The translations under genes were made by a program, and so were the position numbers. Shown piece by piece: positions 34,851 to 54,779 of a DNA stretch of 64,000 nucleotides (the first letter of the stretch is position 1; each line of letters opens with the position of its first letter). Source of the DNA: Rhodovulum sp. P5 (GTDB lineage Bacteria; Pseudomonadota; Alphaproteobacteria; Rhodobacterales; Rhodobacteraceae); contig NZ_CP015039.1 of NCBI RefSeq assembly GCF_002079305.1, positions 2,581,001 to 2,645,000 of the forward strand, in the 5' to 3' direction. The notes beneath the pieces were generated by a model. The model was given only the letters and a program-made list of their open reading frames with translations, was not told the origin of the DNA and did no database searches.

Positions 34851-37800
34851 GTGACGCGGATGAAGGGGGCTGTCTTTGCGGTTCTCCAGGTGCTCTCAAT
34901 GCAACGTCACAATCAGGCTGCCCCGGTTTGCGAGGAGACGCCCGGTGTGTCGATTCTGGTCGTGTCGCCGTCGGGCCATATCCTGAGCGCGAGCGGTGCG
35001 GCCATTGCCGCGATGGGGCCGGAATCGACCGACCTGTCTGGCAGGGTTCTGGGCGATATCCTGTGTCCGGACGATGTCGCGGGGGTTGAGACGGCCATCC
35101 GCGCGCTGGACGGCGGGCAGGTTGCCGCGACAGATGTCGAGCTTGGTGTTCTGTGCGCTGGCGGGGTATGCCGCCGGTTCCGGGCCTTCCTGTCGCCCGT
35201 GCGTGCCGACGACCGGATGGTTGCGGTCTCGATGGTGCTGCATGAGCCCGGCAAGGAGAGGGCGGGGCCAACGGTTTCGTCCGCGCCTGACCCCGCGCGG
35301 CAGTTCGATCCCGGCCTCATGCGTCAGGCCGCGCGGCATTTCGGATTCGCCCAGTGGTTTCTGGAGCCGGCGACGCGGGCGATGTGGGCGACGGAGGCCT
35401 ATTTCGACCTTCTGGGATTTGAGCCCGACGAGGTGGAATTGAGCGGCCCCTGGCTGCGGTCGCGGCTGCATCCCGACGATTTCGACGCGACCGTGTCGCG
35501 GATGGAGCAGTTGCTGGCCAATGAGAACGAGACCTTTGCAATCGACTATCGCCTGCGCTGCAAGGACGGGACCTACAAGTGGTTTCAGGCCAATGCCCGC
35601 CTGTATTCGCGCAAGGGCACCGGCTTGCCCCCCGTCGTTTGCGGCAGCCTGATCGACATTTCCCGCCGCAAGGCGAACGAGTCGCGCCTGAACGCCGCGC
35701 GCGCCAAGGCCGACGCGGCCCGGGCCGAGGCCGAGAAGAGCGAGAGCCTGCTGCATATCGCGACCGAACATGCCGGGGTCGCCCCATGGTTCCTGAACCC
35801 GGCAACCGGAGAGTTCGTCCGCAACGACCGGTTCGGCACGATCACCGGACGAACCGGTGACGGTCTGGCCAAGACGCTGGATGGCATGCTGGGCATGGTC
35901 CATCCCGACGACCTGCCCATGGTGCAGCGGGAACTTGCGGCGATGGTGCAGGGCAAGCAGGCCGAGGCCAAGGCAGATCACCGGATACGCCACAAGGACG
36001 GGCATTGGGTCTGGTGCACAAGCGTCGCCAAGCCGTATCAATCGGGGGAAGACGGCCAACCGCTGCTGATTTGCGGCACGACCTTCGACATCACCGACCA
36101 CAAGGCCTATGAGGCGCGCCTTGCCGAAGCGCTGCGCGCGGCGCAGACCGCGCGCGAGGAAGCGCAGGAAGCTGCCGAGATTCTGCGCCACTCGACGGAA
36201 AACAGCAATGTCGTGCCGTGGTACCGCTATCCCGATTTCGGGCAGGACAGGGTTGGCGATCACCTCAAGACGATGCTGGGCCATGGGCCGGAGTTCGAGA
36301 TTGACCGGCCGGCCTTCCTTGACCTGATGCATCCCGATGACCGTTCCGCGGCCAAGGCGGATTTCTGGGCGATGGATCGCGGCGAAATCGACGCCTATGA
36401 TCACAGTTTCCGGCTGCGCCGGGCGGACGGCACGTGGTGCTGGTTCTCGGCCATGGCGAAACGGGTGGATCGGTCGGATCAGGGCCGCCCGCTGCTGATT
36501 TGCGGCAGCCTGACGGATATCGACGACCTGAAGCGGAACGAGGCACGACTGGCGGAGGCCGCGTCGGAGGCGCAGCAGGCGCAGGACCGGCTGCGGAAAC
36601 TGGCCGACAACATGCCGGGCGCACTGGCCGAGCGGCAGGGGTGGCCTGACGGCACGTCCTCTCTGCCGTATTTCAGCGCCAGGCTGCCGGAGATGTTCGC
36701 CACCACGCGGGACGCGATCGAAAAGGACAGCACCGCCCTTTACGTCCACATGCATCAAGACGACCGCGCGCGGCTTGTCGAACGCGTTGATCAGTCCGCC
36801 GCGGAATTGTCGGCCTTCGACGAACGGGTCAGGATCATGGATCCGGAAACGGGGCCGCGCTGGGTTCGGATTTCGTCGCAGCCCTTTGCCCAGCCCGACG
36901 GGTCGGTCATCTGGTACGGCAATGTCAACGACATCACTGCACAGGTGGAAACCGAGCAGCGGGCCGAAGAGGCGGCCGCACGTCTGCGCTTCCTTGAGGA
37001 GCGGTTGCGCCTGGCCACCGAAGCTGCCGGGATCGGGGTCTGGGACTTCGATCTCGTCAGCGGCCAACTTGTCTGGGATGACACGATGCACCGGATTCAC
37101 GGCATCGCCCCGGGAAGTTTCGGGGGGCGGCTGGAGGGCTGGGTTGACCTCGTGCACCCCGAGGATATCGCGGCCTCGGAGCGACGTTTCAGCGCCGCTG
37201 TCCAGTCGGGCAGTGCCTTCGATGACGCGTTCCGTATCGTCCGGCCCGATGGGACCGTCCGTGTCATCAGCGCCAGGGCGCAGATATTCCGCGACGCGTC
37301 CGGGGCCCCGGTAAGGGCCGTTGGCGTGAACATGGATGTCACCGAGCAGAAGGCCGCGGAGTTGCACCTGGCCGAAGCGGCCGAGGATGCAAGGCGGGCC
37401 CATGATCGGCTGAACATCCTTGCCGACAACGCGCCGGGTGCCCTGTTCGAGTTTCGGCAGGACAGCGCGGGCGTGTTCAGCCTGCCCTATTTCAGCGCCA
37501 ACCTTGCGCCGATCATGGGCGTCACGGCCGAGGCGCTGGCCGCGGACGGCGCCGCGGTATTCGCCCATATCCATCCCGAAGACCTTCCCAAGGTGGTGGA
37601 GGATATCGCGATTTCCCGGGCGGACCTGTCGGATTTCACGGCGCGCTTCCGCATCAATGACCCGCGAACCGGTCTGCGCTGGGTCATGGTCTCCTCCCTG
37701 CCGTCGCTTCAGTCGGATGGCGCCGTTGTCTGGTACGGCAACATGTTCGACGTGACCGAGCAGGAAAAGGTCGAACGCCAGGCCGCAGCCGCCGCAAAAG

Positions 37801-39968
37801 AGTTGCGTGTCGCCAACGACCGTTTCCTGAGTATGGCCGAGAACGCACCCGGCGCAATTTTCGAATGCCACATGGCCCCTGACGGCGAGATGGACTTCAA
37901 GTTCCTCAGCTCCACGCTTTTGGACCTGATGGGCGTGGCGCGCGGCGACGTGGTCGCCAAGGGCAGGAACATGTTTGCGCGGATCCCGCAGGAGGATGCG
38001 GAACTGATCTTGCCCCAGATCATGCAATGCGCCGCGGACCTGCGCCCCTATGAGGTCAAGCACCGCGTCGATCATCCCGAAAAGGGACTGCGCTGGGTCA
38101 TGGCGGCGGCAAATCCCTCCCTGCAACCGGACGGATCGATCATATGGCACGGCAGCGTCGTCGATATCACCGACCGGCTGGAGATGGAGCATCGCGCGGC
38201 GCAGGCGGCCGAAGAGCTCAAGCGGGCCCATGACAGTCTGACCCTGCTGGCCGACATCTCGACCGTTGGTCTTTACGAGTTCTGCCTGCAGCCGGACGGC
38301 ACGACGAAACTGTCCTATTTCAGTGCCCGCTTCGCCGAGCTTGTCGGTTTCGCCCGCGAAGACCTGGAAAAATCGGACGAAGGTGTCTTTGCCCGTATTC
38401 CTGAAGAAGACCTGCCCGCTGTCCGGGCTGCCATTGCGAAAAGCCACCGTGACCTGGTGCCGTTCAGCGTGCGTTTCCGCCTGCGGCATCCCGATCGGGG
38501 CATGGTCTGGGTTCTGGCGGCCGCGAATGCACCGCGTCTGAAAGACGGCGTGTTCACATGGTCGGCGGCGCTGTCCGATGTCACCCCCGTGGTCGAGCGC
38601 GAGCAGGAACTGCGTCGTGCCCACCGTTTGGCCGAGGACATGCGCGCCGAGAACGAGAGGCAGGCGCTGCATGACGGGCTGACCGGTCTTCCCAACCGTC
38701 GCTTCTATGACAAGATGATCGCCGAGCGGCTGGCCTCTGCGGTGGATGGCGGGCCGCGGGACTGTGCCCTTATCCGGCTCGATCTGGACCATTTCAAATA
38801 CGTCAACGACACGCTGGGGCACGAGGCCGGTGATCTTGTGCTGGTGCGCGTGGCGGCGGTGTTGCGCGACTGCCTGCGCGAAGGGGATTTCGTGGCCCGC
38901 ATCGGCGGCGACGAATTCTCGATCCTGATGGCGCCGGGCGTGTCCGAGGTGGAGGCCGAGGCGCTGGTCGAAGAGATCCGCGTGCGGCTGGCCGAACCGC
39001 TGATCTATGAGGGGCGCCAATGCCGCTATGGCGCGAGCTTCGGGATCGCGCAGACCGAGGATGTGTCCGAGATGGGCGAGGACATCCAGATGTTCGCCGA
39101 TGCTGCGCTGTACCGTGCCAAGGCGAGTGGGCGGAACCGGCTGGAGGTGTTTACCCCGGACCTGCATCGGGAGATCCTGACCGACCGGCGTCTTGCGGTC
39201 GAAATCCACGAAGGGCTCGACCGGGATCAGTTCGTGCCGTTCTTCCAGCCGCAGGTTGCAGCCGATGACGGACGACTGGTCGGGATCGAGACGCTGCTGC
39301 GCTGGAAACACCCGGTCGAGGGGCTCTTGTCGCCGGACGCCTTCATGCATGTGGCCGAACAGTTGCGCCTTGTTCCCGAAATCGACCGGATCATGATGGA
39401 GAAATCCCGCGATGCGCTGGCAAACTGGCGTGAACAGGGCCTGATCGTGCCGAAGATCAGCTTCAACGTCTCGTCGGGCCGGATGCACGACCCCAGCGTC
39501 GTGGCGCTGGCCGGCGAGATGGCAAGCGGTGAGACGCGCGTGACCTTCGAGCTTCTGGAATCGATCCTGGTGGAGGAGGAGAACGACACTTTCCGCTGCC
39601 ACCTCGACATGCTGCGCGAGGTCGGGGTCGATATCGAGATCGACGATTTCGGCTCTGGCCATGCCTCGATCATCGGGGTGATGGAAATCGCGCCCTCTGC
39701 GCTGAAGATCGACAAGCGCATCGTGCTGCCGGTCGAACAGGACCTGCGCGCGCGCAGCCTGGTGCGGGCGATTGTCGAGATCGCCGACACGCTGGGGATC
39801 AACACCGTGGCCGAGGGCGTCGAAACCGAGAAGCAGGCCAGGATTCTGCGTGGCATCGGCTGCGATGTTCTTCAGGGCTACCTGTTTGCGCGCCCGCTGA
39901 GCGAAGACCAACTGCTGACCTATGCGCTGGGCGATGGGCTGAGCAAGGCACTGGCAGGGGGCCGCTAG
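34851..39968 (+). CDS. Giant soluble multi-PAS GGDEF-EAL cyclic-di-GMP protein
   Basis: About 1705 residues, no transmembrane segment. One degenerate N-terminal PAS-like unit (about 25-130), then eight PAS/PAC units at roughly 160-278, 300-422, 443-565, 581-700, 712-832, 853-972, 991-1110 and 1128-1247, each closed by a DITD/DISR-type PAC end and a coiled linker. GGDEF domain about 1270-1437 with GGDEF at 1352-1356; EAL domain about 1445-1695 with ETLLRW (Glu1480), FELLESI, EIDDFGSGH, KIDKRIV and VAEGVETEKQ. Active-site residues of both domains look complete. Start uncertain: GTG 34851, ATG 34860 or ATG 34899; none has a strong ribosome site. Divergent from the UbiA-HAD operon. Confidence 0.92.
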   Translation: MTRMKGAVFAVLQVLSMQRHNQAAPVCEETPGVSILVVSPSGHILSASGAAIAAMGPESTDLSGRVLGDILCPDDVAGVETAIRALDGGQVAATDVELGVLCAGGVCRRFRAFLSPVRADDRMVAVSMVLHEPGKERAGPTVSSAPDPARQFDPGLMRQAARHFGFAQWFLEPATRAMWATEAYFDLLGFEPDEVELSGPWLRSRLHPDDFDATVSRMEQLLANENETFAIDYRLRCKDGTYKWFQANARLYSRKGTGLPPVVCGSLIDISRRKANESRLNAARAKADAARAEAEKSESLLHIATEHAGVAPWFLNPATGEFVRNDRFGTITGRTGDGLAKTLDGMLGMVHPDDLPMVQRELAAMVQGKQAEAKADHRIRHKDGHWVWCTSVAKPYQSGEDGQPLLICGTTFDITDHKAYEARLAEALRAAQTAREEAQEAAEILRHSTENSNVVPWYRYPDFGQDRVGDHLKTMLGHGPEFEIDRPAFLDLMHPDDRSAAKADFWAMDRGEIDAYDHSFRLRRADGTWCWFSAMAKRVDRSDQGRPLLICGSLTDIDDLKRNEARLAEAASEAQQAQDRLRKLADNMPGALAERQGWPDGTSSLPYFSARLPEMFATTRDAIEKDSTALYVHMHQDDRARLVERVDQSAAELSAFDERVRIMDPETGPRWVRISSQPFAQPDGSVIWYGNVNDITAQVETEQRAEEAAARLRFLEERLRLATEAAGIGVWDFDLVSGQLVWDDTMHRIHGIAPGSFGGRLEGWVDLVHPEDIAASERRFSAAVQSGSAFDDAFRIVRPDGTVRVISARAQIFRDASGAPVRAVGVNMDVTEQKAAELHLAEAAEDARRAHDRLNILADNAPGALFEFRQDSAGVFSLPYFSANLAPIMGVTAEALAADGAAVFAHIHPEDLPKVVEDIAISRADLSDFTARFRINDPRTGLRWVMVSSLPSLQSDGAVVWYGNMFDVTEQEKVERQAAAAAKELRVANDRFLSMAENAPGAIFECHMAPDGEMDFKFLSSTLLDLMGVARGDVVAKGRNMFARIPQEDAELILPQIMQCAADLRPYEVKHRVDHPEKGLRWVMAAANPSLQPDGSIIWHGSVVDITDRLEMEHRAAQAAEELKRAHDSLTLLADISTVGLYEFCLQPDGTTKLSYFSARFAELVGFAREDLEKSDEGVFARIPEEDLPAVRAAIAKSHRDLVPFSVRFRLRHPDRGMVWVLAAANAPRLKDGVFTWSAALSDVTPVVEREQELRRAHRLAEDMRAENERQALHDGLTGLPNRRFYDKMIAERLASAVDGGPRDCALIRLDLDHFKYVNDTLGHEAGDLVLVRVAAVLRDCLREGDFVARIGGDEFSILMAPGVSEVEAEALVEEIRVRLAEPLIYEGRQCRYGASFGIAQTEDVSEMGEDIQMFADAALYRAKASGRNRLEVFTPDLHREILTDRRLAVEIHEGLDRDQFVPFFQPQVAADDGRLVGIETLLRWKHPVEGLLSPDAFMHVAEQLRLVPEIDRIMMEKSRDALANWREQGLIVPKISFNVSSGRMHDPSVVALAGEMASGETRVTFELLESILVEEENDTFRCHLDMLREVGVDIEIDDFGSGHASIIGVMEIAPSALKIDKRIVLPVEQDLRARSLVRAIVEIADTLGINTVAEGVETEKQARILRGIGCDVLQGYLFARPLSEDQLLTYALGDGLSKALAGGR

Positions 39969-40337: not shown

Positions 40338-40739
40338 ATGCCCGAACTGTTCTCGGACGACTTCATGGTCGATTTCGGAAACGCATGGAATGACGATGAA
40401 ATCGGTGAGGCTTTGGCCAAGATCGGGTTCAACTCGACCATCGGTTACGGTTTCGAAGGCGACGACAAACCAAAGGGTTATCTCAAGGTCGAGAATGGCT
40501 TTGTGACCGAGGCCGGCGCCTATCAGGACGCCGCGCTAAACTGGGATCTGCGCGCCAAGCCCGCCGACTGGGAGAAATGGTGCCAGAAGGGCGTCAGCAT
40601 GATGTCGCTCGGCCTGGCCTATACCTCGGGCAAGCTGAAGTTTCTGACGGGTGACTATACCGCGATGATCAAGAACCCGGCGATGGCCGGGCCGTTCATC
40701 AAGAGCTTCGCGGTCATGGGACGCGTTCCGCGCACCTGA
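40338..40739 (+). CDS. SCP2 sterol-binding-domain-like protein
   Basis: 133 residues, no signal peptide. The pattern WDLRAKPADWEKW, followed by a helix and LAYTSGKLKFLTGDYTAMIKNP and a final MAGPFIKSF, fits the SCP2 sterol/lipid-binding fold. Such proteins bind a hydrophobic ligand in a cytoplasmic cavity. A GGAGGAGC ribosome site precedes ATG 40338. It is the first gene of the cluster, 36 bases ahead of the RND adaptor gene, so a role in handling a lipid or hydrophobic cargo for the pump is suggested. The family call is by pattern and length only. Confidence 0.7.
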   Translation: MPELFSDDFMVDFGNAWNDDEIGEALAKIGFNSTIGYGFEGDDKPKGYLKVENGFVTEAGAYQDAALNWDLRAKPADWEKWCQKGVSMMSLGLAYTSGKLKFLTGDYTAMIKNPAMAGPFIKSFAVMGRVPRT

Positions 40740-40775
40740 ACCCTACCGAAATCCTGACGGAGGAGGAGGCGTCGA

Positions 40776-42053
40776 ATGTCGGCGATCTCAAGGATTTTTG
40801 CGCTTGCCGTGGCGGCGTTGGCGGGAGCCGGGGCCGTGATCGTGGCCCGCCCGTACCTGTTCCCCGAAGAGCCGTCCGGCGCGCGGTCCGCGGAGGGATC
40901 GGCCCATTCGCGGCCCCCGGTTTACGGCCCGGCCTTCGCGGCGGCGTCCGGCCGGCTGGTCGAAGTGTCCGAGATGTCGGCGGCGCAACGCATCCGTCTT
41001 GGCGGAACGGTCGAACCGGACCGGACCGTGCGCCTGTCTGCCGAAGCCTCCGGCCGCGTGACCTTCGTCGCGGGTGAGGAAGGCGACCGAGTGGCAGAGG
41101 GCGACATCGTCGTCGGCCTGGATACCGATGCGATCGACCCGCAATACCGGGCGGCATGGGCGGATCTGAGCGAACAGATGGCCGGTCTTGCCAATGCCCG
41201 GACGCAACTTGTGAATGACCTTTACGGCCCGACAACGCCGCCGATGGGGGGCACGCCGCAGGCCGCCTTCGATCAGGCCGGCGTGCCGCTTTACAACATG
41301 TTCCAGAGCATGATGGGCGGGATGCCGGGCACGCCCTATAGCGGGCCGATGCAGACCCAGTCCGAGGCGCAGCGCAACTTCGCCACCGCCTCGGCTGCGC
41401 GGTACGACTATGAACGACAGCTTGCGGCGCTGTCGGCCGCGCAATCCCGGCTTGACGGGCTGGACGCGCAGTTGCGCGACCGCCGGGCCATTGCGCCCTG
41501 GAACGGCGTGATCATGAAGCGGTTCGTGCGCGTGGGCGATCAGGTGCAGCCCGGTCAGCCCGTGGCCGAGTTCGCCGATGTCGATGCCCTTGTCGTTCGG
41601 ATCGACGTGCCGGTTGCGATGGTGGAGAACCTGCATCTTGGCGAACGGGTGCCGCTAAGCATTGCCGGCAACAACATCTGGGCACCGGTCAAGCAGATCT
41701 ATCCGGCGGCCGATCCCTCGGCCCATACCGTGCCGGTCAAGCTGGCGCTGCCCTATGGCGCCCCCGCGGCACCCGGCATGTATGCCGTAGCTTGGATCGG
41801 GCAGGAGAAGAGCGGCAGCCCAAGCGCGCTTTCGGCCGCGATTCCGGCCAGTGCCGTGACCTATCGCGGCAGCCTGCCGCTCGCCTTCGTCGCGGGGCGC
41901 GACGGCCGGGTCGAGATGCGCGTGGTCCGGCTGGGCGACCGGCAGGGCGACCGGGTCGCCGTTCTGTCGGGCCTGAAGCCCGGCGAGATGGTCGTGGATA
42001 CCCCCGCGCCGGATCTGAAATCAGGCCAGTGGCTTGCGGTAACCGGCGGCTGA
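40776..42053 (+). CDS. RND efflux periplasmic adaptor (HlyD/MFP family)
   Basis: 425 residues with an N-terminal anchor helix (IFALAVAALAGAGAVIV), barrel-sandwich pieces VRLSAEASGRVTFVAGEEGD and APWNGVIMKRFVRVGDQV, and a beta-barrel/membrane-proximal end with LKPGEMVV. Between the two lipoyl halves the usual coiled hairpin carries a Met/Gly/Pro-rich insert (about residues 151-195: PTTPPMGGTPQ, MFQSMMGGMPGTPYSGPM) that is unlike standard adaptors. ATG 40776 with GGAGGAGGAGG upstream. Followed after 13 bases by the RND permease. No TolC-type outer-membrane gene is nearby. Confidence 0.9.
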   Translation: MSAISRIFALAVAALAGAGAVIVARPYLFPEEPSGARSAEGSAHSRPPVYGPAFAAASGRLVEVSEMSAAQRIRLGGTVEPDRTVRLSAEASGRVTFVAGEEGDRVAEGDIVVGLDTDAIDPQYRAAWADLSEQMAGLANARTQLVNDLYGPTTPPMGGTPQAAFDQAGVPLYNMFQSMMGGMPGTPYSGPMQTQSEAQRNFATASAARYDYERQLAALSAAQSRLDGLDAQLRDRRAIAPWNGVIMKRFVRVGDQVQPGQPVAEFADVDALVVRIDVPVAMVENLHLGERVPLSIAGNNIWAPVKQIYPAADPSAHTVPVKLALPYGAPAAPGMYAVAWIGQEKSGSPSALSAAIPASAVTYRGSLPLAFVAGRDGRVEMRVVRLGDRQGDRVAVLSGLKPGEMVVDTPAPDLKSGQWLAVTGG

Positions 42054-42066
42054 GGGGCGGTAGACA

Positions 42067-45725
<3,659 letters not shown>

Positions 45726-45729
<4 letters not shown>

Positions 45730-46196
45730 TCGTGCGTTCATCTCTCGCCCTTGCAGCGGCCCTGTTCTGCGCGCCCGTGGCGGGGTCGGCGGGGACGTTC
45801 GGCGAACTTTCCGCGGCCAAGGCCCGGCCCCCGGTGCAGGAGCCACCGGCCGCCACCTGCCCGCCCTATTGCCCGGTTGCGCCCTATTATGCGCCCCCTG
45901 CGGCCGAGGGCGGACTGCGCCGCGGTTACGTCACCGGGCAGCCTTACATGGTCGCTCCCGTGCCGCCGCCCACCCCGTACCCGCCGCTTGTGACGGGGCC
46001 GGGTGGCGAACCGGGCGGGGCGATCCCGATCTGGAGTTACGGCCAGATGACCTCGATGTCGAACCCCTACGATCCGTGGGGGCTCAGCACGCCTTTCATG
46101 CACGTACCTTGGTCGACGCCGCTGTCGGGGTGGACCAATGCGACGACATGGAACTGGTGGCGCGAACGATCCGGCGCGTCACCGGGCAACTGGTAG
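45726..46196 (+). CDS. Exported Pro/Tyr/Trp-rich protein of unknown function
   Basis: 156 residues. Signal peptide at about 1-22 (SLALAAALFCAPVAGSAG), then a low-complexity proline-rich region with CPPYCPVAPYYAPPA, PVPPPTPYPPL, and a Trp-rich end (NPYDPWGLSTPFMHVPW, NATTWNWWRERSG). No family recognised. ATG 45726 overlaps the RND stop (ATGA), so its synthesis is coupled to that of the pump, making it a likely periplasmic or outer-membrane partner or cargo. Composition is akin to the next three genes. Confidence 0.75.
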
Positions 46197-46245
46197 CGCG
46201 GACACAGACCGCGCTGCCACGGGTTAACCAAGGAGGAGACGACCC

Positions 46246-46671
46246 ATGAAAACTCTCAAGATCGCACTGCTCTCGACCGGCTTTGCCGCCGTTGCAGGGC
46301 TGGCCGCTGCCCAGCAGAACATGCAGCCCCCGCCCCCGAGCGGCCCCTATGCCGGTCAGGAACAGCAGGCCCCGGCCCCGCAGGCTGGCCCGCAGGCCCC
46401 GGCCCCCTATGGCTACGCCCCGGCGCCCTACGGCTATGGCTACCCGCCCCCCTACTACGGCGGCTACCCCTACTACGATGACTACGGCTACGGCCGTGGG
46501 TATGGCCGTGGCTACGGGCGTGGCTATGGCCGCGGTCGTGGTCGCGCCAGCGGCTCGTTCTCGTTCGGTGGCGACGCCGACATGTACGGCCGCGGCCTCG
46601 GCGACATGTACGACGACATGTATGGCCGTGGCTACGGCGACCGTGGGGGCTGGGGCCCCGGCTGGTGGTAA
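46246..46671 (+). CDS. Exported Gly/Tyr-rich protein, sulfur-globule-protein-like
   Basis: 141 residues. Signal peptide (about 1-23, ending AAGLAAAQQ), a Gln/Pro/Ala-rich stretch, then PYGYAPAPYGYGYPPPYYGG, a run of YGRG repeats, and a C-terminal unit SGSFSFGGDADMYGRGLGD ending in WGPGWW. Composition and repeat style resemble the small Gly/Tyr-rich envelope proteins of sulfur globules in purple sulfur bacteria. That resemblance could be convergent low complexity. ATG 46246 has an AGGAGGAG ribosome site. A strong hairpin follows, compatible with an abundant, stable message. Its C-terminal block is shared with the next protein. Confidence 0.75.
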   Translation: MKTLKIALLSTGFAAVAGLAAAQQNMQPPPPSGPYAGQEQQAPAPQAGPQAPAPYGYAPAPYGYGYPPPYYGGYPYYDDYGYGRGYGRGYGRGYGRGRGRASGSFSFGGDADMYGRGLGDMYDDMYGRGYGDRGGWGPGWW

Positions 46672-46682
46672 GCAGCACCTTT

Positions 46683-46708
46683 GGCGCTCCGGCTTGTGCC
46701 GGGGCGCC
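46683..46708 (+). promoter_or_regulatory. Strong intercistronic hairpin after the Gly/Tyr-rich gene
   Basis: GGCGCTCCGGC (46683-46693) pairs with GCCGGGGCGCC (46698-46708) over 11 pairs, one of them G-U, with a TTGT loop. It lies 12 bases past the stop and before the next gene. No T-tract, so message stabilisation or partial attenuation is more likely than full termination. Confidence 0.65.
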
Positions 46709-46746
46709 GCCTCCCGTGCCTCCCAAACTCGAGGACCAGTAAGACC

Positions 46747-47814
46747 ATGCAGATCAGAATGAAAATCCTCGGGCCGACCGCCGCGGCAGCCATGGCCCTG
46801 GTCATGGCAAGCGGTGCCCTGGCCCAGAATGCACAGCAGGCACCGGACGCCGGTCAGGGTGGAGCCCAGAGCAGCGCATCCGCTGCTCCCGCGCGTCAGC
46901 AGAATTTCGACCCTTGGGGACCGCCGCCGGGCTGGGGCCCGGAGCCCGGTTGGGGCCCCGAACCGGCCTGGGGCCCCGAACCCGGTTGGGGCCCGGAGCC
47001 GAACTGGGGACCCGCCCAGCGCCCGGCACCCGCATACGGGCCTGGCCCCCGCGGGCGTCAGATGGCCGACCCCGGTTGGGGCGCCGCGCCCGGCTGGGGC
47101 CCGGAACCCAATTGGGGTCCCGAACCGAACTGGGGCGCCGAACCCGACTGGGGGCCGGAGCCCAATTGGGGACCTGAGCCTGACTGGGGGCCCGAACCGG
47201 CTTGGGGCGCCGAGCCGAACTGGGGTCCTGAACCGGGGCGGCAAGGTGCCGCTCCGGCCGCGGCCCCTGCGCAGACCGGCGAGCCGCGCCGGCGGGCCGC
47301 ACCCGAGTGGTGGTCCGATCCGAACTGGGGCGCCGAGCCCGATTGGGGCCCGGAACCCGAGTGGGGGTCTGAACCGAACTGGGGGGCTGAACCCGACTGG
47401 GGTCCCGAACCGAACTGGGGCCCGGGGCCGCGCGGACGGCGTGCCGCGCCGGGCTGGGGCCAGCCGCCGATGGACCCGTGGGGGCCGTATCCCGGTGGGC
47501 AACAGCCGGCGCAGGGTGAACCTGCCCAAGCCCGGCCGATGCCGCCGCAGCAGCCCTATGGCTATGCCGCGCCGGCCTATGGCCCCGGCTATGCGCCCTA
47601 CGGTTATGGTCGTCCGGCGCCCTATTACGGCTATGGCTACAACCCCTATTACGACGGCTACGGGCGAGGTTACGGCTATGGCCGCGGGTACGGCCGGGGG
47701 CGCGGCATCATGCGCGGGTCATGCACCTGTCGCGGTGATGGCGACATGTTCGGCCGCGGATGGGGCGACAACTATGGCCGTGGCTGGGGCCCCGGTCGCT
47801 GGGGTCGCTGGTAA
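46747..47814 (+). CDS. Exported Trp-rich hexapeptide-repeat protein
   Basis: 355 residues, with Trp about one tenth of the sequence. Signal peptide at about 1-28 (ending VMASGALAQ), a Gln/Ala linker, then about 20 copies of a six-residue unit WG(P/A)EP(N/D/G/A/E) between residues 62 and 228 in three blocks separated by short Arg/Pro/Ala linkers. This is followed by a Tyr/Gly/Pro region (PYGYAAPAYGPGYAPYGYG) and YGRG runs. The end, GDGDMFGRGWGDNYGRGWG, parallels the C-terminus of the previous gene, and CTC occurs just before it. I know no named family with this repeat. ATG 46747 is chosen (GAGGACC upstream); ATG 46759 is possible. Confidence 0.75.
   Translation: MQIRMKILGPTAAAAMALVMASGALAQNAQQAPDAGQGGAQSSASAAPARQQNFDPWGPPPGWGPEPGWGPEPAWGPEPGWGPEPNWGPAQRPAPAYGPGPRGRQMADPGWGAAPGWGPEPNWGPEPNWGAEPDWGPEPNWGPEPDWGPEPAWGAEPNWGPEPGRQGAAPAAAPAQTGEPRRRAAPEWWSDPNWGAEPDWGPEPEWGSEPNWGAEPDWGPEPNWGPGPRGRRAAPGWGQPPMDPWGPYPGGQQPAQGEPAQARPMPPQQPYGYAAPAYGPGYAPYGYGRPAPYYGYGYNPYYDGYGRGYGYGRGYGRGRGIMRGSCTCRGDGDMFGRGWGDNYGRGWGPGRWGRW
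46930..47430 (+). repeat. 18-bp tandem coding repeat encoding WG(P/A)EP(x)
   Basis: Roughly 20 imperfect 18-base units of the form TGGGGxCCxGAxCCxxxx in three blocks, in frame throughout. Synonymous differences between units show the array is not a very recent copy of a single unit. Such an array is liable to length change. Confidence 0.85.
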
Positions 47815-47825
47815 TCGCGAAACGG

Positions 47826-47848
47826 TCCCGTGCGCGCGGCGCGCGGGA
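47826..47848 (+). promoter_or_regulatory. Intercistronic hairpin after the Trp-rich gene
   Basis: TCCCGTGCG (47826-47834) pairs with CGCGCGGGA (47840-47848) over nine pairs with one G-U and a 5-base loop. It sits 12 bases after the stop, mirroring the hairpin after the preceding gene. Confidence 0.55.
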
Positions 47849-47878
47849 TCACCGCCCTGAACCAATCGGGAGAAGAAC

Positions 47879-48406
47879 ATGAAAAGGATCAAGCGCGCTC
47901 TCGGTGCCGTTGTGCTGTCCCTCGGGGTTGCAGCATCGGGCACGGCGCAGGCCCAGTGGGGCGGACCTTGGGGTGGAAGCCCGTGGGGCGGCGGTCCTTG
48001 GGGCGGCGGTCCTTGGGGCGGCAACCCCTGGGGAGGTGCCTACGCGCCGTATGGCGGCTACGCACCCTACGGGAACAACCCCTACTACTATGACCCCTAC
48101 AACTCCGGGTATGGCTATGGTCGCGGCTGGGGCCGGGGCCGCACCGGCGGCAATGTGGGCTTCAGCGCCACGATGGGCGGCTGGGGCAACGGGCTTGGCA
48201 ACAACGGCTGGGGCGGCTCGCCCTGGAACAGCTATGGCGGCTCCCCCTGGGGGGGCGGTCCCTGGGGCGGCAGTCCATGGGGAAGCCCATGGGGCGGCTC
48301 GCCCTGGGGGGGCAGTCCCTGGGGCGGTAGCCCATGGGGAGGAAGCCCTTGGGGCGGCAGTCCGTGGGGCAGCCCGTGGGGCGGTTTCCCCGGATTCGGC
48401 TGGTAA
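47879..48406 (+). CDS. Exported PWGG-repeat Gly/Trp-rich protein
   Basis: 175 residues. Signal peptide about 1-26 (LGAVVLSLGVAASGTAQA), then repeats of PWGG(S/G/N) in two blocks: near residues 30-53 and near 115-170. A Tyr/Pro/Asn-rich segment (YGGYAPYGNNPYYYDPYN), YGYGRGWGRGR and an NVGFSATMGGWGNG unit lie between them. Gly and Trp dominate. Sulfur-globule-type or other structural extracytoplasmic proteins show similar make-up; function unproven. The ATG at 47879 has GGGAGAAG upstream. Third of three consecutive Gly/Trp/Tyr-rich exported proteins. Confidence 0.75.
   Translation: MKRIKRALGAVVLSLGVAASGTAQAQWGGPWGGSPWGGGPWGGGPWGGNPWGGAYAPYGGYAPYGNNPYYYDPYNSGYGYGRGWGRGRTGGNVGFSATMGGWGNGLGNNGWGGSPWNSYGGSPWGGGPWGGSPWGSPWGGSPWGGSPWGGSPWGGSPWGGSPWGSPWGGFPGFGW
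48238..48393 (+). repeat. 15-bp coding repeat encoding PWGG(S/G)
   Basis: About ten units with codons for Pro-Trp-Gly-Gly-Ser/Gly in frame, two of them shortened to PWGS. A second shorter block of the same unit lies at about 47966-48037. Confidence 0.8.
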
Positions 48407-48492
48407 TCAGAAACACGTCTTTTGAATGGAACGGCGGCGGCATGTCTGCCTGGCGCCGTCTGTCTTGATCCCGATCTGAAAAGGGGAGCCCT

Positions 48493-49062
48493 ATGCTTTT
48501 GCGTGTTCTCGTCGTCGTGGTACTTGCCGCGGTGTTCTTTGCAATCGGCGCCTGGAGCGGTGGGCGGTTCCCGCCGATCCGCGAGGCCGTCGTGACCGGT
48601 ACAGTCATGGCCGGTGAAAAGGCCGATCAAGCCTGGACGTGGCTGCGTGACGGACCCGTCGGCAGCGAATCCACCCGTGTCTGGCACTGCGTGCGCGACG
48701 GTGCCCCCCAGCGCGCCCCCGACACGCCGCCGGCGGGCGTTGAAACCGTCGCAAGCGTCGCAACCGCCCGCGAGGCCTTTGCCCGGGGCGACCTGAAGGC
48801 GGCGATCGCGGACTACAAGACCGTGCTGGAGGATCAGCCTGACAATGCGGATATCCTGGGCGAGTTGGGCAATGTCTACTTCGCCAGCGGACGGTCGCTT
48901 GAAGCGGCAGAGGCCTTCCACGCATCGGCAATTGCCCTGATCGCGCAGGGCAGTGATGCGAAGGCGCGCGCGCTGCTGCCCACGATCCGCGATCTTGCGC
49001 CGTCGCTGGCGGCGGATCTGGATGCGAAACTGGCCGCCCCGTCAGGCCCGGCGCGGCCATGA
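48493..49062 (+). CDS. Membrane-anchored TPR protein
   Basis: 189 residues. N-terminal hydrophobic helix (about 2-22, LLRVLVVVVLAAVFFAIGAW) without an obvious cleavage site, then a linker and about two tetratricopeptide repeats: ATAREAFARGDLKAAIADYK, DNADILGELGNVYFASG and SLEAAEAFHASAIALIAQG. It is probably a periplasmic TPR scaffold anchored in the inner membrane. ATG 48493 with AGGGGAG upstream. Its stop overlaps the next ATG (ATGA). Position after the repeat-protein genes suggests an assembly or binding role. Confidence 0.8.
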   Translation: MLLRVLVVVVLAAVFFAIGAWSGGRFPPIREAVVTGTVMAGEKADQAWTWLRDGPVGSESTRVWHCVRDGAPQRAPDTPPAGVETVASVATAREAFARGDLKAAIADYKTVLEDQPDNADILGELGNVYFASGRSLEAAEAFHASAIALIAQGSDAKARALLPTIRDLAPSLAADLDAKLAAPSGPARP

Positions 49063-49571
49063 CTGAAAAAGCTGCCTCCACGACGAAGGAAAAACTTGCG
49101 GCCGAAACGCGGGAAAGGCGTCGCGAACTTGCGCGATCGCTCGAATATCTCCAGCATCTCGAACATTTCGAGGCGGCGCTCAAGGCGGTTCGGCTGGTGG
49201 TCTTCGCGGGGATGACGAGCTTTGTCATCCTTGCCATCTACGGCTTCGTCCTGATCTATCGGTTGACCACGGACGTGCATGTTCTGGTGGGTCAGACCGC
49301 GATCATGACGCAGCAGATGCAGGCGATGACCCGAAGCATGGCGAACCTGCACCAGACCACGGCCTCCATGTCGACGGACGTATCTTCGATGAGCGAGGAC
49401 ATGTCCGTGATGACCGGCCAGGTCGGGCGGATGGCGGACTCGGTCACGTTGATGCAGCACTCCGCCACCAACATGGACCGGCAGATGAGCCCGATCATGG
49501 GGACGATGAACCGGTTCATGCCCTTCGACGGCATGTCGGGCTATCCGGTCTCGCCCCCCTACGCGCGATAA
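49059..49571 (+). CDS. Inner-membrane protein with periplasmic coiled coil (MCP-like helix)
   Basis: 170 residues. A charged N-terminal helix (about 8-40), one transmembrane helix about 43-67 (VRLVVFAGMTSFVILAIYGF), then a long heptad-like Met/Ser/Thr-rich helix (about 70-155: MTQQMQAMTRSMANLHQTT, MSTDVSSMSEDMSVMTGQ) similar to the signalling helix of methyl-accepting proteins but on the other side of the membrane. No HAMP or signalling tip. Translationally coupled to the TPR gene (ATGA at 49059-49062) and last of the cluster. Function unknown; perhaps a partner of the TPR protein. Confidence 0.75.
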   Translation: MTEKAASTTKEKLAAETRERRRELARSLEYLQHLEHFEAALKAVRLVVFAGMTSFVILAIYGFVLIYRLTTDVHVLVGQTAIMTQQMQAMTRSMANLHQTTASMSTDVSSMSEDMSVMTGQVGRMADSVTLMQHSATNMDRQMSPIMGTMNRFMPFDGMSGYPVSPPYAR

Positions 49572-50864: not shown

Positions 50865-53033
50865 CTAGCTGGAATAGTAGGTGTCGCCATACCCGGCATA
50901 GGCGCCGTAGCGCTCTCCATAGCCGTAGCGTTTCATTCCCTTGGGGCTGATCTGGCTGAGGATCAGGCCGTTCACGTGCTGGTTGGTGTTGTGGAACATG
51001 CGCATCGCTTCATCCACCTGCGCCTTGCTGGTGCCGTCCCATTTGACCGTGAACAGGACTGTGTCCGCCTCTCGCGCGATGATGCGGGCATCGGGCACGA
51101 CCAGAACGGGGGGCGTGTCGATGATGATCGCATCGTACTGGCTGCGCAGCGTCTTGATGAAATCCCTGAACCGCTGAGAGGCGAACAGGTCGGCGGCATT
51201 CACCTTGGTCCGTTCCCCGGCAAGCACATCGGCCCCGAAACCGGGCGCGTGGTAGACCGCGTCTTCGACCGCCACCTCTCCTGCCAAGACCGAGACGATG
51301 CCGCGTTCTGGCATGCGGTCGAAATAGCGGTTCAGGGTGCGCCGGCGGATATCGCCTTCGACCAGCAGCACCGACTTGCCGAGGCCAAGCAGGTTATGGG
51401 CGAGCGCGAGCGCATTGGTCGTCTTGCCCTCCCCGGGAATGGAGGAGGTCGAGACGATCACCTGCGGCGGGTTGTCCACATTCGACAAGAGCACCGAGGT
51501 GCGCAGGTTGCGTACTGCCTCCGCCGCGGCCGAAGTCGGCTTATCCGTCAGGTAGGACAGGATCTTGCTGCGCGCCTTGGCCGGGATCACGGGGATCTGG
51601 CCCATGACCGTGTAACCTGTATGGGCTTCCAACTCCCGCGCGGTGCGGAAGCCGGTGCTGCGTGCCTCTTTCAGGAACAGCATGGCGGAACCTGCGACCA
51701 CCCCGACGAATGCGGACATCATCAGGATGAGCCCTTTCTTGGGGCTCGACGCATCAAGGGGGACCACCGCGTTGGACAGGATGCGGCTGTCGGGCTGTTG
51801 TATCCCCTGCTGGGCGGATGTCTCTTTCAGGCGGGCAAGGAAATACTCGTACAGAAGCCGCGTTGCCTCGGCCTCGCGGCTGAGTTGCTGCAACGTGATC
51901 AGGTCCTGGCCCTGCTGTTCGATTTGCGCGGTCAGGTCCTGTTTCGAGGCCTCCAGCGCCGCAAGTTGCTGATCGGCGCGGACCAGGTCCATTTCCATGC
52001 GCGTCAGAATCTGGCCGAACCGGGTGTCGAACGCACGGGCCCGGTCCGGGTTCTCGGCGGCCCCTTCAAGGTCGCGGGTCAGCTGGATGTCCTCTGCCAG
52101 CGCGGCTTGCTCTGGCCGGCTTTGCGCGGCCGTCAACCGATCATACCGGGCCTTCAGCGCATCCCGCGCTTCCCGGGTCGACCCGATACGTTCGCGCATT
52201 TCCTTCATCTGGCGTTCCAGCCCGGCCAACGCTTCGGGCGAGACCAGATCGGTTGCGGCATTGAACGCCTTCACCGCCCCTTCGGCCTTTTCAAGCTCGG
52301 TCTGCAATTCGGCGACTCGGTTGCTGAGCCATGTCGTTGCCTGCTCGGTCGCCTCGAACTTCACCGAGACCTGGTCGACGATGTAAAGTTCGACGATGGT
52401 GTCCGCGATCAGCGCGGCCTTTTCGGGACTTTCGCTTTCCGCCGTGACCCCGAAGACAAGCGTCTGTGGAATGTTGCGGACCGAAATCTTTCGCAGAAGC
52501 TGCGAGATCACGCTGTCGCGCAGGCGGCGCGTGGCCTCTTCCGGGGGCAGGGGCAAAGGGGGTTTGGACAGGCCAAGGGCCGCCTTTACCCCGTCCTTGG
52601 CCCGTTCGACCGGGCTGGGGGGCTGAAGCGTGGGGTTGAATTCGGGGTCCGACACGAGGTCAAGCTCATCGACGACCTTGCCCAGCAGGCCGCGGGCGCG
52701 CAGGACCTCGACCTCGGAATTCACCTCTGACGTATCACCGGAAAGCCCGCCCACGACGCTTTGCAGATCGACGATCTGTTCCTGCCGCGTCTCCAGCATG
52801 ACCACGGCGGTTGCGCGGTAAAGGGGGGTGGCGACCATGAAGGCATAAAAGCCGCCGGCGATCACCGCCATGACGCAAAACGCAAGGATCAGGAGTTTGC
52901 CCCGCCACAGGATGCCGAACACCGCCGACAGGTCGATCACGTCTTCCCCTGTGGTGTCCGATCCCCGTTGAGGGAAGGCGCGGGAAACGATCTTGGCGGA
53001 GGGCGAACGCGGTTCTTCGGTCATATGATTCAT
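50865..53033 (-). CDS. wzc: Wzc-type polysaccharide co-polymerase and BY tyrosine kinase
   Basis: 722 residues. N-terminal Wzz domain with the first membrane helix about 45-68, a long periplasmic coiled-coil region (about 200-430), and a second helix about 445 following SSPKKGLILM. A cytoplasmic BY-kinase follows: Walker A SSIPGEGKTT (about 528-538), Walker A' LLVEGDIRRR, Walker B IIIDTPPV. The C-terminal Tyr cluster RYGYGERYGAYAGYGDTYY is the autophosphorylation tail. It controls export and chain length of surface polysaccharide together with Wza. Starts ATG 53033 or ATG 53024; neither has a ribosome site, and TATATACC lies just upstream. Confidence 0.94.
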   Translation of the reverse strand: MNHMTEEPRSPSAKIVSRAFPQRGSDTTGEDVIDLSAVFGILWRGKLLILAFCVMAVIAGGFYAFMVATPLYRATAVVMLETRQEQIVDLQSVVGGLSGDTSEVNSEVEVLRARGLLGKVVDELDLVSDPEFNPTLQPPSPVERAKDGVKAALGLSKPPLPLPPEEATRRLRDSVISQLLRKISVRNIPQTLVFGVTAESESPEKAALIADTIVELYIVDQVSVKFEATEQATTWLSNRVAELQTELEKAEGAVKAFNAATDLVSPEALAGLERQMKEMRERIGSTREARDALKARYDRLTAAQSRPEQAALAEDIQLTRDLEGAAENPDRARAFDTRFGQILTRMEMDLVRADQQLAALEASKQDLTAQIEQQGQDLITLQQLSREAEATRLLYEYFLARLKETSAQQGIQQPDSRILSNAVVPLDASSPKKGLILMMSAFVGVVAGSAMLFLKEARSTGFRTARELEAHTGYTVMGQIPVIPAKARSKILSYLTDKPTSAAAEAVRNLRTSVLLSNVDNPPQVIVSTSSIPGEGKTTNALALAHNLLGLGKSVLLVEGDIRRRTLNRYFDRMPERGIVSVLAGEVAVEDAVYHAPGFGADVLAGERTKVNAADLFASQRFRDFIKTLRSQYDAIIIDTPPVLVVPDARIIAREADTVLFTVKWDGTSKAQVDEAMRMFHNTNQHVNGLILSQISPKGMKRYGYGERYGAYAGYGDTYYSS

Positions 53034-53390
53034 GGTATATACTAGGGCACAGATAACCTCATGCGCCCGCAACGCTGACGCACAATGCGTTGATCAGAAA
53101 ATTTTCCTGCCATCCTTAACCCTTTTTTTCCGCATTTGCCATGCGGGCCGCGCCATATGGTGAATGGAGCGTCGTCTTTGGCGGATGGTTGCCGACCCGG
53201 GGCGGGATCGGCCATGCGAAAACGGCGCGCATTCAACCTGCCCGCCGGAATGCAAGGTTCGAGAATGTAGCGAAGCTTTGGGAGTGGAAAGACGCCATTA
53301 CACCTGCCCAACCAGTGCCTTGGGCCGGTTCGAGGTGACGCCGAGACGTGTCAGGCGGACGGACAGTCGCCCGCCTGACACAGCAGGATA
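53034..53390. other. 357-base region upstream of wzc
   Basis: No gene supported; a minus-strand open frame here lacks coding character. Contains a CAGAAAATTTTCCTG palindrome-like site near 53095, a T7 run followed by CCGCAT-TTGCC-ATGCGG at about 53123-53146, and a long hairpin at 53348-53381. It should hold the wzc promoter. Confidence 0.45.
53348..53381 (-). terminator. Long hairpin downstream of the small exported-protein gene
   Basis: GTGTCAGGCGG (53348-53358) and CCGCCTGACAC (53371-53381) form a perfect 11-bp stem with a 12-base loop, ten bases past the stop of the small exported-protein gene on the minus strand. No T-tract. Confidence 0.5.
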
Positions 53391-53723
53391 TCAGTTCGTC
53401 GTGCCGGTGGTGCCGGTCGTGCTGGTGGCGGACGTGCTGGTCGTGGACCCGCCACCGCGTCCTGCGCCCACGGCGACGCCAAGGCCGATTGCCCCGACGG
53501 CGACGGCGGGCGCGAGCGATACGAATGTTGCGCCGGCAGCACCGGCCCCTGCACCGGCGGTGCCCGTTGCCCCCTCAGCCGACTGCGAGACGACCTCGTT
53601 CGAGGGCAGGTTCAGGCAAGCCGGCAGCCCGGCATTCGCGGGGTTTGCGCAATCGGTCGCGGCAGCGACGGGAAGCGCGGGGACAGCGATCAACAGGGAT
53701 GCTGAGATCAGTTTCTTTAACAT
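53391..53723 (-). CDS. Small exported Gly/Thr-rich protein near the EPS genes
   Basis: 110 residues. Signal peptide about 1-22 (ISASLLIAVPALPVAAA), then a two-cysteine segment (DCANPANAGLPACLNLPSNE), a Gly/Ala-rich hydrophobic stretch that could insert in a membrane (GAIGLGVAVGAGRGGG), and a Ser/Thr-rich end. I know no named family. ATG 53723 fits a GGAGACCGCC ribosome region; the longer frame has no signal peptide at its start. Located between the wzc and phosphatase genes, all on the minus strand. Confidence 0.7.
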   Translation of the reverse strand: MLKKLISASLLIAVPALPVAAATDCANPANAGLPACLNLPSNEVVSQSAEGATGTAGAGAGAAGATFVSLAPAVAVGAIGLGVAVGAGRGGGSTTSTSATSTTGTTGTTN

Positions 53724-53913
53724 GGCGGTCTCCAATTCCTTTGCGAAAGACGTTAACGCATTTCCGGCCCGGAAAGAAGAACGTGTCTGCGGGAAAGTGG
53801 GTCGCGGCTGTGCCGGTCGGCCATGATCTGCCCAAATCTTGCACGCTTCGCACGTCGCGCGGGTAATCGGTATTCCCTTCGCAAGAGCAGACCGGCCCTG
53901 TTGCCCAAGGAGG

Positions 53914-54642
53914 TCAGGCCGTGATGAATTCCACGCCATCTGACGAAACCTGTGCCGCGGTCAGCCGGCCTGTCGCATAGGCCCCGGTATCGATGGCGAT
54001 TCGGCCGTCGGAGGCAACCGGTTCATCAACGATGGTGTGGCCGTGCACGACCCATAGCCCGTCGGGGCGTGGCGTTGTCCGGAAATCGGGATGGCCCCAG
54101 CGCAGGACGCGGCTGGATTGGGCGACAAGCGGCAGGTTGGGGTCTGCCGCCGCATGAACGACGCCGACATTGCCCGTGCTCCAATGGCTCGGAAGGGTCT
54201 CCAGCCATGTGACCAGATCGCGGCCCATGGCCTCGCGCAGTTTGTCACGTGCTTCGGTCAGGGCCGGTTCGGGGGAGGTTTCGGTCACACCGGCCACCCC
54301 GAAACTGGCCATCGCCTGAAGGCCGCCATTGCGAAGCCACCGTGCCCCGTAGCGGCCCGGGTCGTTAAGGAAGCCCATCATCATGTCTTCGTGGTTTCCG
54401 CCGATACACAGGACGTCCTCGCGGGAGTTCAACAGGCGCAAGACCTCGGCGCTGTGTTCGCCGCGGTCGACATAGTCGCCGACGCAGATAATCCGGAAGG
54501 CTGGGTCGATGCGCCCCAGCAGGCGTTCCAGAAGATCGACGCGACCGTGCACATCGCCGATGGCGGCGAATGGCCGATCCGGCGCGGGCGGGGCAAAGGC
54601 GTCTGCCCCCCGAGATCTTCCGAGAATCCGCTTCCAGATCAT
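53914..54642 (-). CDS. Metallophosphoesterase (serine/threonine-phosphatase-like)
   Basis: 242 residues, calcineurin-like phosphoesterase. Metal and catalytic motifs in order: AIGDVHGRVDLLERLL, CVGDYVDRGE, GGNHEDMMMGF, and C-terminal VVHAAADP and VVHGHT with metal-binding His. This matches the bacterial PrpA/ApaH-like phosphoprotein phosphatase group. In an EPS locus with a tyrosine-kinase co-polymerase a regulatory phosphatase is plausible but not shown. ATG 54642 chosen; upstream codons unsupported. Divergent from yjbH. Confidence 0.88.
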   Translation of the reverse strand: MIWKRILGRSRGADAFAPPAPDRPFAAIGDVHGRVDLLERLLGRIDPAFRIICVGDYVDRGEHSAEVLRLLNSREDVLCIGGNHEDMMMGFLNDPGRYGARWLRNGGLQAMASFGVAGVTETSPEPALTEARDKLREAMGRDLVTWLETLPSHWSTGNVGVVHAAADPNLPLVAQSSRVLRWGHPDFRTTPRPDGLWVVHGHTIVDEPVASDGRIAIDTGAYATGRLTAAQVSSDGVEFITA

Positions 54643-54779
54643 GATGACTCCGTCCTGTCGTTTGCCCCTGGTCCGGTCCCCGGGGCTTGACAAGAGGACA
54701 TAGATAGGGCGCAGGAGGGTTTGAAGTCGATTGATACAGTTTTTTCACCGGACGCCGACGCACGCAGGACCGAACGCCC

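Follow-up and report, generated by a model that had tools for sequence, protein, structure and literature searches.

A conserved RND pump cluster with exported aromatic-rich proteins in Rhodovulum sp. P5, probably a sulfur-globule-type coat and biogenesis module

Why should a pump of the resistance-nodulation-division (RND) type be encoded next to a series of exported proteins rich in glycine and aromatic residues? The question is raised by nine genes at positions 40338..49571 of a 64,000-nucleotide stretch of Rhodovulum sp. P5 (the window). To our knowledge, little is understood of the way in which bacteria assemble protein-coated sulfur globules, or of what passes through the membrane meanwhile, and globule coat proteins have largely been studied as separate genes. 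We observed gene content, conservation, co-occurrence with sulfur-oxidation genes, matches to the globule protein family PF17228 in relatives and a correlation between a pump motif and ParA-type ATPases, and on this basis propose that the cluster is probably a sulfur-globule-type coat and biogenesis module. The proposal is least secure where results from relatives are carried over to the organism of the window itself. The first-pass annotation had read nine consecutive same-strand genes here, and all nine open reading frames (ORFs) were confirmed:

40338..40739, + strand: first gene of the cluster, small SCP2-like protein of 133 aa (family alignment, predicted model)
40776..42053, + strand: RND periplasmic adaptor of the membrane fusion protein (MFP) type (TIGR01730 profile)
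42067..45729, + strand: RND permease of 1220 aa, in its own clade, with a long basic and Pro-rich C-terminal tail (PF00873 profile and clade)
45271..45726, + strand: tail of this permease, about 152 aa, 30 K/R against 14 D/E, RPP(R/K)L-type repeats, without an RGIRLK-like end motif
45726..46196, + strand: exported Pro/Trp-rich "W" protein with a DPWGL...VPWSTPLSGWTN block, its start inside the pump stop (hidden Markov model (HMM) family)
46246..46671, + strand: exported protein with PPPPSGPY, YGRG and FSFGGDADM motifs (GPY-type motif 3' of the pump in relatives)
46747..47814, + strand: exported WG(P/A)EP-repeat protein (sequence reading, recurrence in relatives)
47879..48406, + strand: exported protein with PWGGS repeats, which may correspond to the gammaproteobacterial sulphur globule protein (profile comparison)
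48493..49062, + strand: membrane-anchored tetratricopeptide repeat (TPR) protein (TPR_11 profile)
49059..49571, + strand: membrane-anchored Met-rich coiled-coil (CC) protein, the survey marker (alignment A2)

The genes are separated by 36, 13, -4, 49, 75, 64, 86 and -4 nt in order, the two overlaps being those of the pump with the W protein, as the first-pass annotation had noticed, and of TPR with CC. Its assignments of the RND adaptor and permease held, both proteins exceeding curated cut-offs (RND_mfp TIGR01730, 150.7 bits, cut-off 94.9; ACR_tran PF00873, 500.2 bits, cut-off 28), as did that of the TPR protein (TPR_11, 38.8 bits, cut-off 26.8), for which a single-sequence search returned just three further homologues. 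The CC protein matches DUF948 below that model's cut-off, and the best start of the WG(P/A)EP-repeat protein is the ATG at 46747. The pairing of an ACR_tran permease with an MFP adaptor, by which HAE-1 RND systems are recognised, is thus present in the window; inspection and profile scans recognised no outer-membrane factor among the nine genes, and one may be supplied elsewhere.

The cluster is a conserved module. When named genomes were scanned with the permease alignment, the 12 closest (L011-L022) of the best 80 loci (L011-L090) had a common order of SCP2-like gene, adaptor, pump, exported proteins, TPR and CC. Pump and TPR occur together in 9 of these 12, so that the check put forward in the first-pass annotation, on whether RND, TPR and repeat genes remain linked, came out positive in relatives; 7 of the 9 also have CC (L013 and L015 are without it in the stretch examined); the stretches of L016, L020 and L021 end in the pump or within about 1.3 kb after it. 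The SCP2-like gene is found in 8 of the 12, with L021 and L022 having upstream sequence that contains none, and L014 and L022 carry an extra ParA-type gene. Among the other 68 loci (pump identity at most 47%, many of them short) we found no CC, one weak TPR (L029) and an SCP2-like gene in three cyanobacterial loci only. The pump clade is accompanied by SCP2-like, adaptor, exported aromatic/Gly-rich, TPR and CC genes in alpha-, beta- and gammaproteobacteria. The record holding L011 (CP059262.1) is titled Exiguobacterium profundum; its pump is 80% identical to that of the window, and the label looks wrong for that DNA. Close to its cluster are genes for a multihaem cytochrome and for a molybdopterin oxidoreductase.

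The 120 top-ranked permease homologues, out of 8000 that were scored, include full-length relatives at or above about 61% identity from named sources such as Marimonas, Tropicimonas, Marinibacterium, Rhodobacter ferrooxidans, Rhodoblastus, Azonexus, Parasulfuritortus and Sulfuriferula, followed at 50-58% by Thiorhodospira, Thioalkalivibrio, Endothiovibrio and Granulosicoccus. In a tree built from 24 selected cluster pumps plus 7 others, all 24 fell into a single clade (support 0.993), within which an alpha plus beta group stands beside a gamma group. This pump accounts for one of the 11 ACR_tran match rows in the window's genome (G000; 4.47 Mb, 99.99% complete); two of the rows share a frame.

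The distribution of the CC protein links the module to sulfur oxidation. With the CC profile, 78 of 369 genomes of the class of G083, a Rhodocyclaceae genome, matched at E<=1e-8; we take this class to hold the beta- and gammaproteobacteria of GTDB and call it gammaproteobacteria here, and the sample, which is centred on G083, also includes G089, the source of one CC sequence (L019) in profile A2. Across these 369 genomes soxB (E<=1e-120) was present in 70/78 CC-positive against 79/291 CC-negative genomes (p=1.9e-24) and dsrA (E<=1e-60) in 65/78 against 52/291 (p=5e-27), statistics that take no account of phylogeny. By genotype, CC accompanied soxB plus dsrA in 61/104 genomes, soxB without dsrA in 9/45 and dsrA without soxB in 4/13, and was present in 4/207 genomes lacking both. 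The globule family PF17228, which we take to be built on SgpA/SgpB, followed the same division: genome-wide matches at E<=1e-4 occurred in 21/33 randomly drawn CC-positive genomes, which were not limited to sox+dsr, versus 2/34 random CC-negative sox+dsr genomes (p=4e-7), and in 20/27 versus 2/34 when the CC-positive set was restricted to sox+dsr (p=2e-8), with none in 14 control genomes.

Forty loci holding the best CC match and at least 7 kb of upstream sequence were available, drawn by hand and not at random from the CC matches and representing 40 of the 78 CC-positive genomes; 25 of them encode a pump upstream within 7 kb on the same strand. They remained from 59 loci after removal of L172, which has no CC, of 16 with less than 7 kb upstream (leaving 42) and of the secondary matches L161 and L162, the chosen regions having included nine secondary CC matches (L158-L165, L167), a second region of G762 (L172) and the sox region of G000. 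Some CC loci without a pump adjoin dsrAB-like genes, read by eye, and others have unremarkable neighbours. The CC family is thus broader than the module, and the form that accompanies the pump is the most frequent one in the loci examined. As a module-specific marker CC was rejected, since it also occurs without the pump beside other gene sets.

In the window's own class, CC has a different distribution. A search of 80 relatives, including 15 congeners, matched neither the SCP2-like nor the CC gene, and among 385 genomes of the class the CC profile gave 11 matches at E<=1e-3, of which only G000 was strong (2.4e-74; next 1.2e-6). This pattern, together with the frequency of CC in the class of G083, fits horizontal acquisition, and the cluster was probably acquired in this way by the window's lineage. 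No CC match was found in 72,556 plasmid records, from which the window's own records may be excluded.

A simple hydrophobicity rule gives the four exported proteins of the window signal-like N-termini, and G/W/Y/P/F/N make up 48-81% of their mature parts, so that each has the predicted signal peptide and Gly/aromatic-rich mature chain of a sulfur globule coat protein. Exported proteins with signal-like N-termini recur in the clusters of relatives, and the W-protein HMM family is present in L011-L015 and L017. A set of 62 cluster exported proteins (A4) was compiled from 70 candidate ORFs, omitting those that looked like chance frames (window:28443, both of L019, both of L136, L145:17726, L159 and L168). 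Nine of the 62 matched PF17228 at E<=10 (best 6.5e-15), in gammaproteobacterial clusters; no other family matched more than four members, the best other E-value being 0.00035 (Collagen, one member). Six matches reached the cut-off of 26.7 bits (L150 56.2, L177 36.1, L175 33.2, L021 30.3, L174 27.7, L154 26.7), two fell below it (L139 25.7, L173 21.0) and L153 gave no score. The NCBIfam globule models matched nothing in the 10 relatives scanned. The link to sulfur globules proposed by the first-pass annotation is therefore borne out in relatives, through PF17228 members inside clusters and co-occurrence with sox, dsr and PF17228. For the window's own repeat proteins, which had been said to recall globule envelope proteins, a direct family match was rejected: none of the four matches Pfam or NCBIfam at E<=1.

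The profile bridge from the gammaproteobacterial globule proteins to those of the window is weaker. A profile of the mature parts of the former scored 32.5 against the PWGGS family and 37.5 against the GPY family, above 118/120 and 119/120 column-shuffled controls, respectively; across three profile comparisons the observed score was reached by 2, 1 and 1 of 120 shuffles, and the two that beat the PWGGS comparison were alignments of 12 and 3 columns. The PWGGS-family profile returned 21 matches, none globule-named; one of them, P0142, is a 292-aa metagenomic protein with OmpA and PF17228 domains. A GPY-type motif occurs in an ORF 3' of the pump in 20/34 loci versus 1/281 other coding-like ORFs, and [ND]PW in 18/34 versus 4/281, in a comparison of loci (any ORF within 5 kb) with single ORFs that is not like for like and uses motifs picked after the loci had been viewed. 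The count leaves out L016, L020, L136 (which duplicates the record of L019) and loci with less than 2.5 kb after the pump.

The pump itself has an unusual C-terminus. Tails of at least 130 residues were present in 17 of 26 pumps measured, excluding the broken L011 frame, and in 15 of the 17 K+R exceeded D+E. Repeats of the (R/K)PPRL type mark the alpha and beta forms, and an RGI(R/K/Q)(L/I)(K/N) end marks the beta forms and 18/27 forms of the gamma set. The RGIRLK-like end was compared across the 32 loci that have a complete pump and, no further than 9 kb away, CC: it was present in 18/18 with a ParA-type gene versus 1/14 without (p=4e-8; relatedness not corrected, and the motif picked after viewing the sequences). 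L011 was kept in this count and in the GPY count despite its broken pump frame, the ORF of which runs on into other sequence; dropping it gives 1/13, and L136 was left out here too. The ATPase is thus found in 18/32 complete loci overall, all with the pump end motif, and in 17/27 of the gammaproteobacterial set, and the one cluster ParA-type ATPase scanned matched CbiA, AAA_31 and MipZ over cut-offs. The window cluster encodes no ParA/MinD-type ATPase, and its pump tail has no RGIRLK-like motif.

The first gene had been called SCP2-like. Its family (alignment A3) shares 52-83% identity, the lowest values being those of the cyanobacterial copies, which also lie ahead of a related pump, and the predicted model is confident (predicted local distance difference test score 93), with an element order of HHEEEEHHEHH that agrees with the SCP2 fold. 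The Pfam SCP2 model matched 0/12 family members and a PDB sequence search found nothing, so that sequence support for the name is lacking and the label rests only on the predicted element order. In cyanobacteria, the SCP2-like gene lies 5' of a related RND pump (42% identity) at L038:7129-7524, L039:7468-7863 and L045:7516-7911, in loci where no TPR or CC was found, and an older core of SCP2-like protein and pump may exist outside sulfur oxidisers.

Taken together, we propose that Sec-exported Gly/Trp/Tyr-rich proteins would build or cover a deposit outside the cytoplasm, which is most likely elemental sulfur. Together with its adaptor, the RND pump could move a hydrophobic component, such as a lipid or a sulfane-carrying molecule, to the deposit site, fed by a cytosolic SCP2-like carrier of hydrophobic ligands, while the membrane TPR and Met-rich coiled-coil proteins may scaffold the assembly. 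In ParA-bearing loci the ATPase, tied to the pump-tail end motif, would position it. The window presumably carries an alphaproteobacterial version without ParA, with which its organism may deposit sulfur. A more specific form of this proposal is a positioned sulfur-globule factory, in which the pump would build protein-coated globules or load them, and ParA docks on the RGIRLK end of the long basic tail and places pump and globule as McdA-type ATPases do cargo, with the SCP2-like carrier and the TPR and coiled-coil scaffolds, and the window version lacking ParA and motif together; we regard this as possible, though short of probable.

Several observations weigh against a globule module, above all in the window's own organism. 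The first-pass annotation had pointed to the genome for sox and dsr: G000 has a sox region with soxA (246 bits), soxB and soxC (603 bits) by model and soxX, soxY, soxZ and soxD by reading, and dsrA gave 0 matches in G000, so that the gene expected of a sulfur-storing organism with reverse dissimilatory sulfite reductase (rDsr) is absent. Organisms of the SoxC type classically need no globules. Any sulfur deposition there would not run through rDsr, and a sulfide:quinone reductase (SQR) route to sulfur is possible. The window proteins at 46246, 46747 and 47879 do not match PF17228 at E<=10, nor does that at 45726 at E<=1, and low complexity weakens sequence comparisons of this kind. Among the window's genome and those of L011-L022 (G000 and G081-G092), soxB exceeded the cut-off in 10/13 and dsrA in 9/13 (absent from G000, G081, G087 and G091), and PF17228 was unmatched in 11/13. 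Two alphaproteobacterial-type carriers, G081 and G087, for which genome completeness is not stated, have no soxB over the cut-off and no dsrA; conversely, all 15 congeners have soxB and lack CC, and the five congeners tested have no dsrA. In the larger sample 43 sox+dsr genomes are without CC, the neglect of phylogeny applies to each p-value there, and PF17228 lies within 15 kb of CC in only 6 of the 21 positive CC-positive genomes, which indicates that globule genes are often elsewhere in the genome. Fifteen of the 40 best-CC loci show no pump, and CC copies in L145, L158, L159, L203 and L205 sit beside nap-, ccm/dsrC- and nir/heme d1-like genes, read by eye. Loss of SgpD did not prevent globules in Allochromatium vinosum (PMC10386293), and in Azospira suillum deletion of an operon with SQR, an adaptor and a pump, possibly of another family than that of the cluster, left the rate unchanged although the operon is highly expressed during H2S oxidation (PMC5358917).

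These points can be set against three other explanations. A general cell-envelope or extracellular matrix or sheath module, in which a lipid-like molecule would leave through the pump and the repeat proteins would make up a surface layer, with sulfur not obligatory, agrees with the cyanobacterial loci where an SCP2-like gene precedes a related pump without TPR or CC, with the two alphaproteobacterial-type carriers devoid of soxB and dsrA, and with the exopolysaccharide-type genes (Wzz, YjbH) bordering the window cluster. We nevertheless consider it unlikely, given the co-occurrence with sox, dsr and PF17228 and the PF17228 members within clusters. The presence of PF17228 members in pump clusters also argues against a respiratory or redox envelope scaffold, in which CC and TPR would arrange periplasmic systems for electron transfer or maturation, a task that the aromatic-rich proteins would also serve. 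That idea draws on the CC paralogues beside napA-, cytochrome c maturation- and nir/heme d1-like genes (by eye) and on the multihaem cytochrome and molybdopterin enzyme near the L011 cluster, but the nap/ccm/nir-linked CC stretches examined hold no pump of the cluster family, and we judge it improbable.

A detoxification pump that relieves sulfide or metal stress, with the repeat proteins as bystanders, appears very improbable, since the same partners occur in the same order in distant classes and the pump-tail motif tracks ParA; in its favour, RND transporters were up during H2S oxidation in Azospira suillum, which was read as a response to toxic metal sulfides (PMC5358917). We therefore retain the sulfur-globule-type module as the probable explanation. 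The extracytoplasmic structure envisaged by the first-pass annotation (globule coat, sheath or matrix) is supported by the conserved clusters and the PF17228, sox and dsr links of relatives, and remains in doubt where the window proteins miss PF17228, dsrA is absent and G081 and G087 have neither soxB nor dsrA.

Outside the cluster, the upstream neighbour (34851-39968) encodes a 1705-aa protein with seven PAS_3 stretches, GGDEF and EAL. Downstream (50865-56891) lie a Wzz/tyrosine-kinase-like gene on the minus strand and a YjbH exopolysaccharide gene on the plus strand.

As far as literature searches reach, the module, which occurs chiefly among sulfur oxidisers, is undescribed: the accessible parts of papers on globules and related pumps (PMC10386293, PMC11267869, PMC7787665, PMC4287430 and PMC5358917) contain no description of the cluster. 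It provides a conserved set of pump, carrier, scaffold and coat genes that can be deleted and localised. Among known systems, PF17228 sulphur globule proteins are likewise small, exported and Gly/aromatic-rich, and some gammaproteobacterial cluster members score as PF17228; the window proteins differ in bearing other repeats and missing the model, and the sources, so far as accessible, describe no pump and scaffold cluster for the family. A precedent is that of Allochromatium vinosum sgpD (Alvin_2515), a globule protein gene that rises 28-fold on sulfide and adjoins the gene of a hydrophobic/amphiphilic exporter, its product being globule-bound and the most abundant globule protein; sgpD is reported as a transcription unit of its own (PMC10386293), and the likeness to the cluster is one of gene arrangement. 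With HAE-1 RND pumps of the AcrB type the cluster shares an ACR_tran permease and adaptor. Its pump differs in falling far below multidrug model cut-offs, in its long tail with RPPRL repeats or an RGIRLK-like end and, on inspection, in having no recognised outer-membrane channel gene among the nine window genes; if our proposal is true, a pump clade that several sources name multidrug efflux would have a physiological, non-drug role. ParA/McdA-type cargo positioning differs in that the partner here would be an RND pump, and the window is without ParA; the resemblance lies in the ParA-type ATPase of 18/32 complete loci, all with the pump end motif, a correlation that offers a directly testable prediction on how a bacterial storage body is placed.

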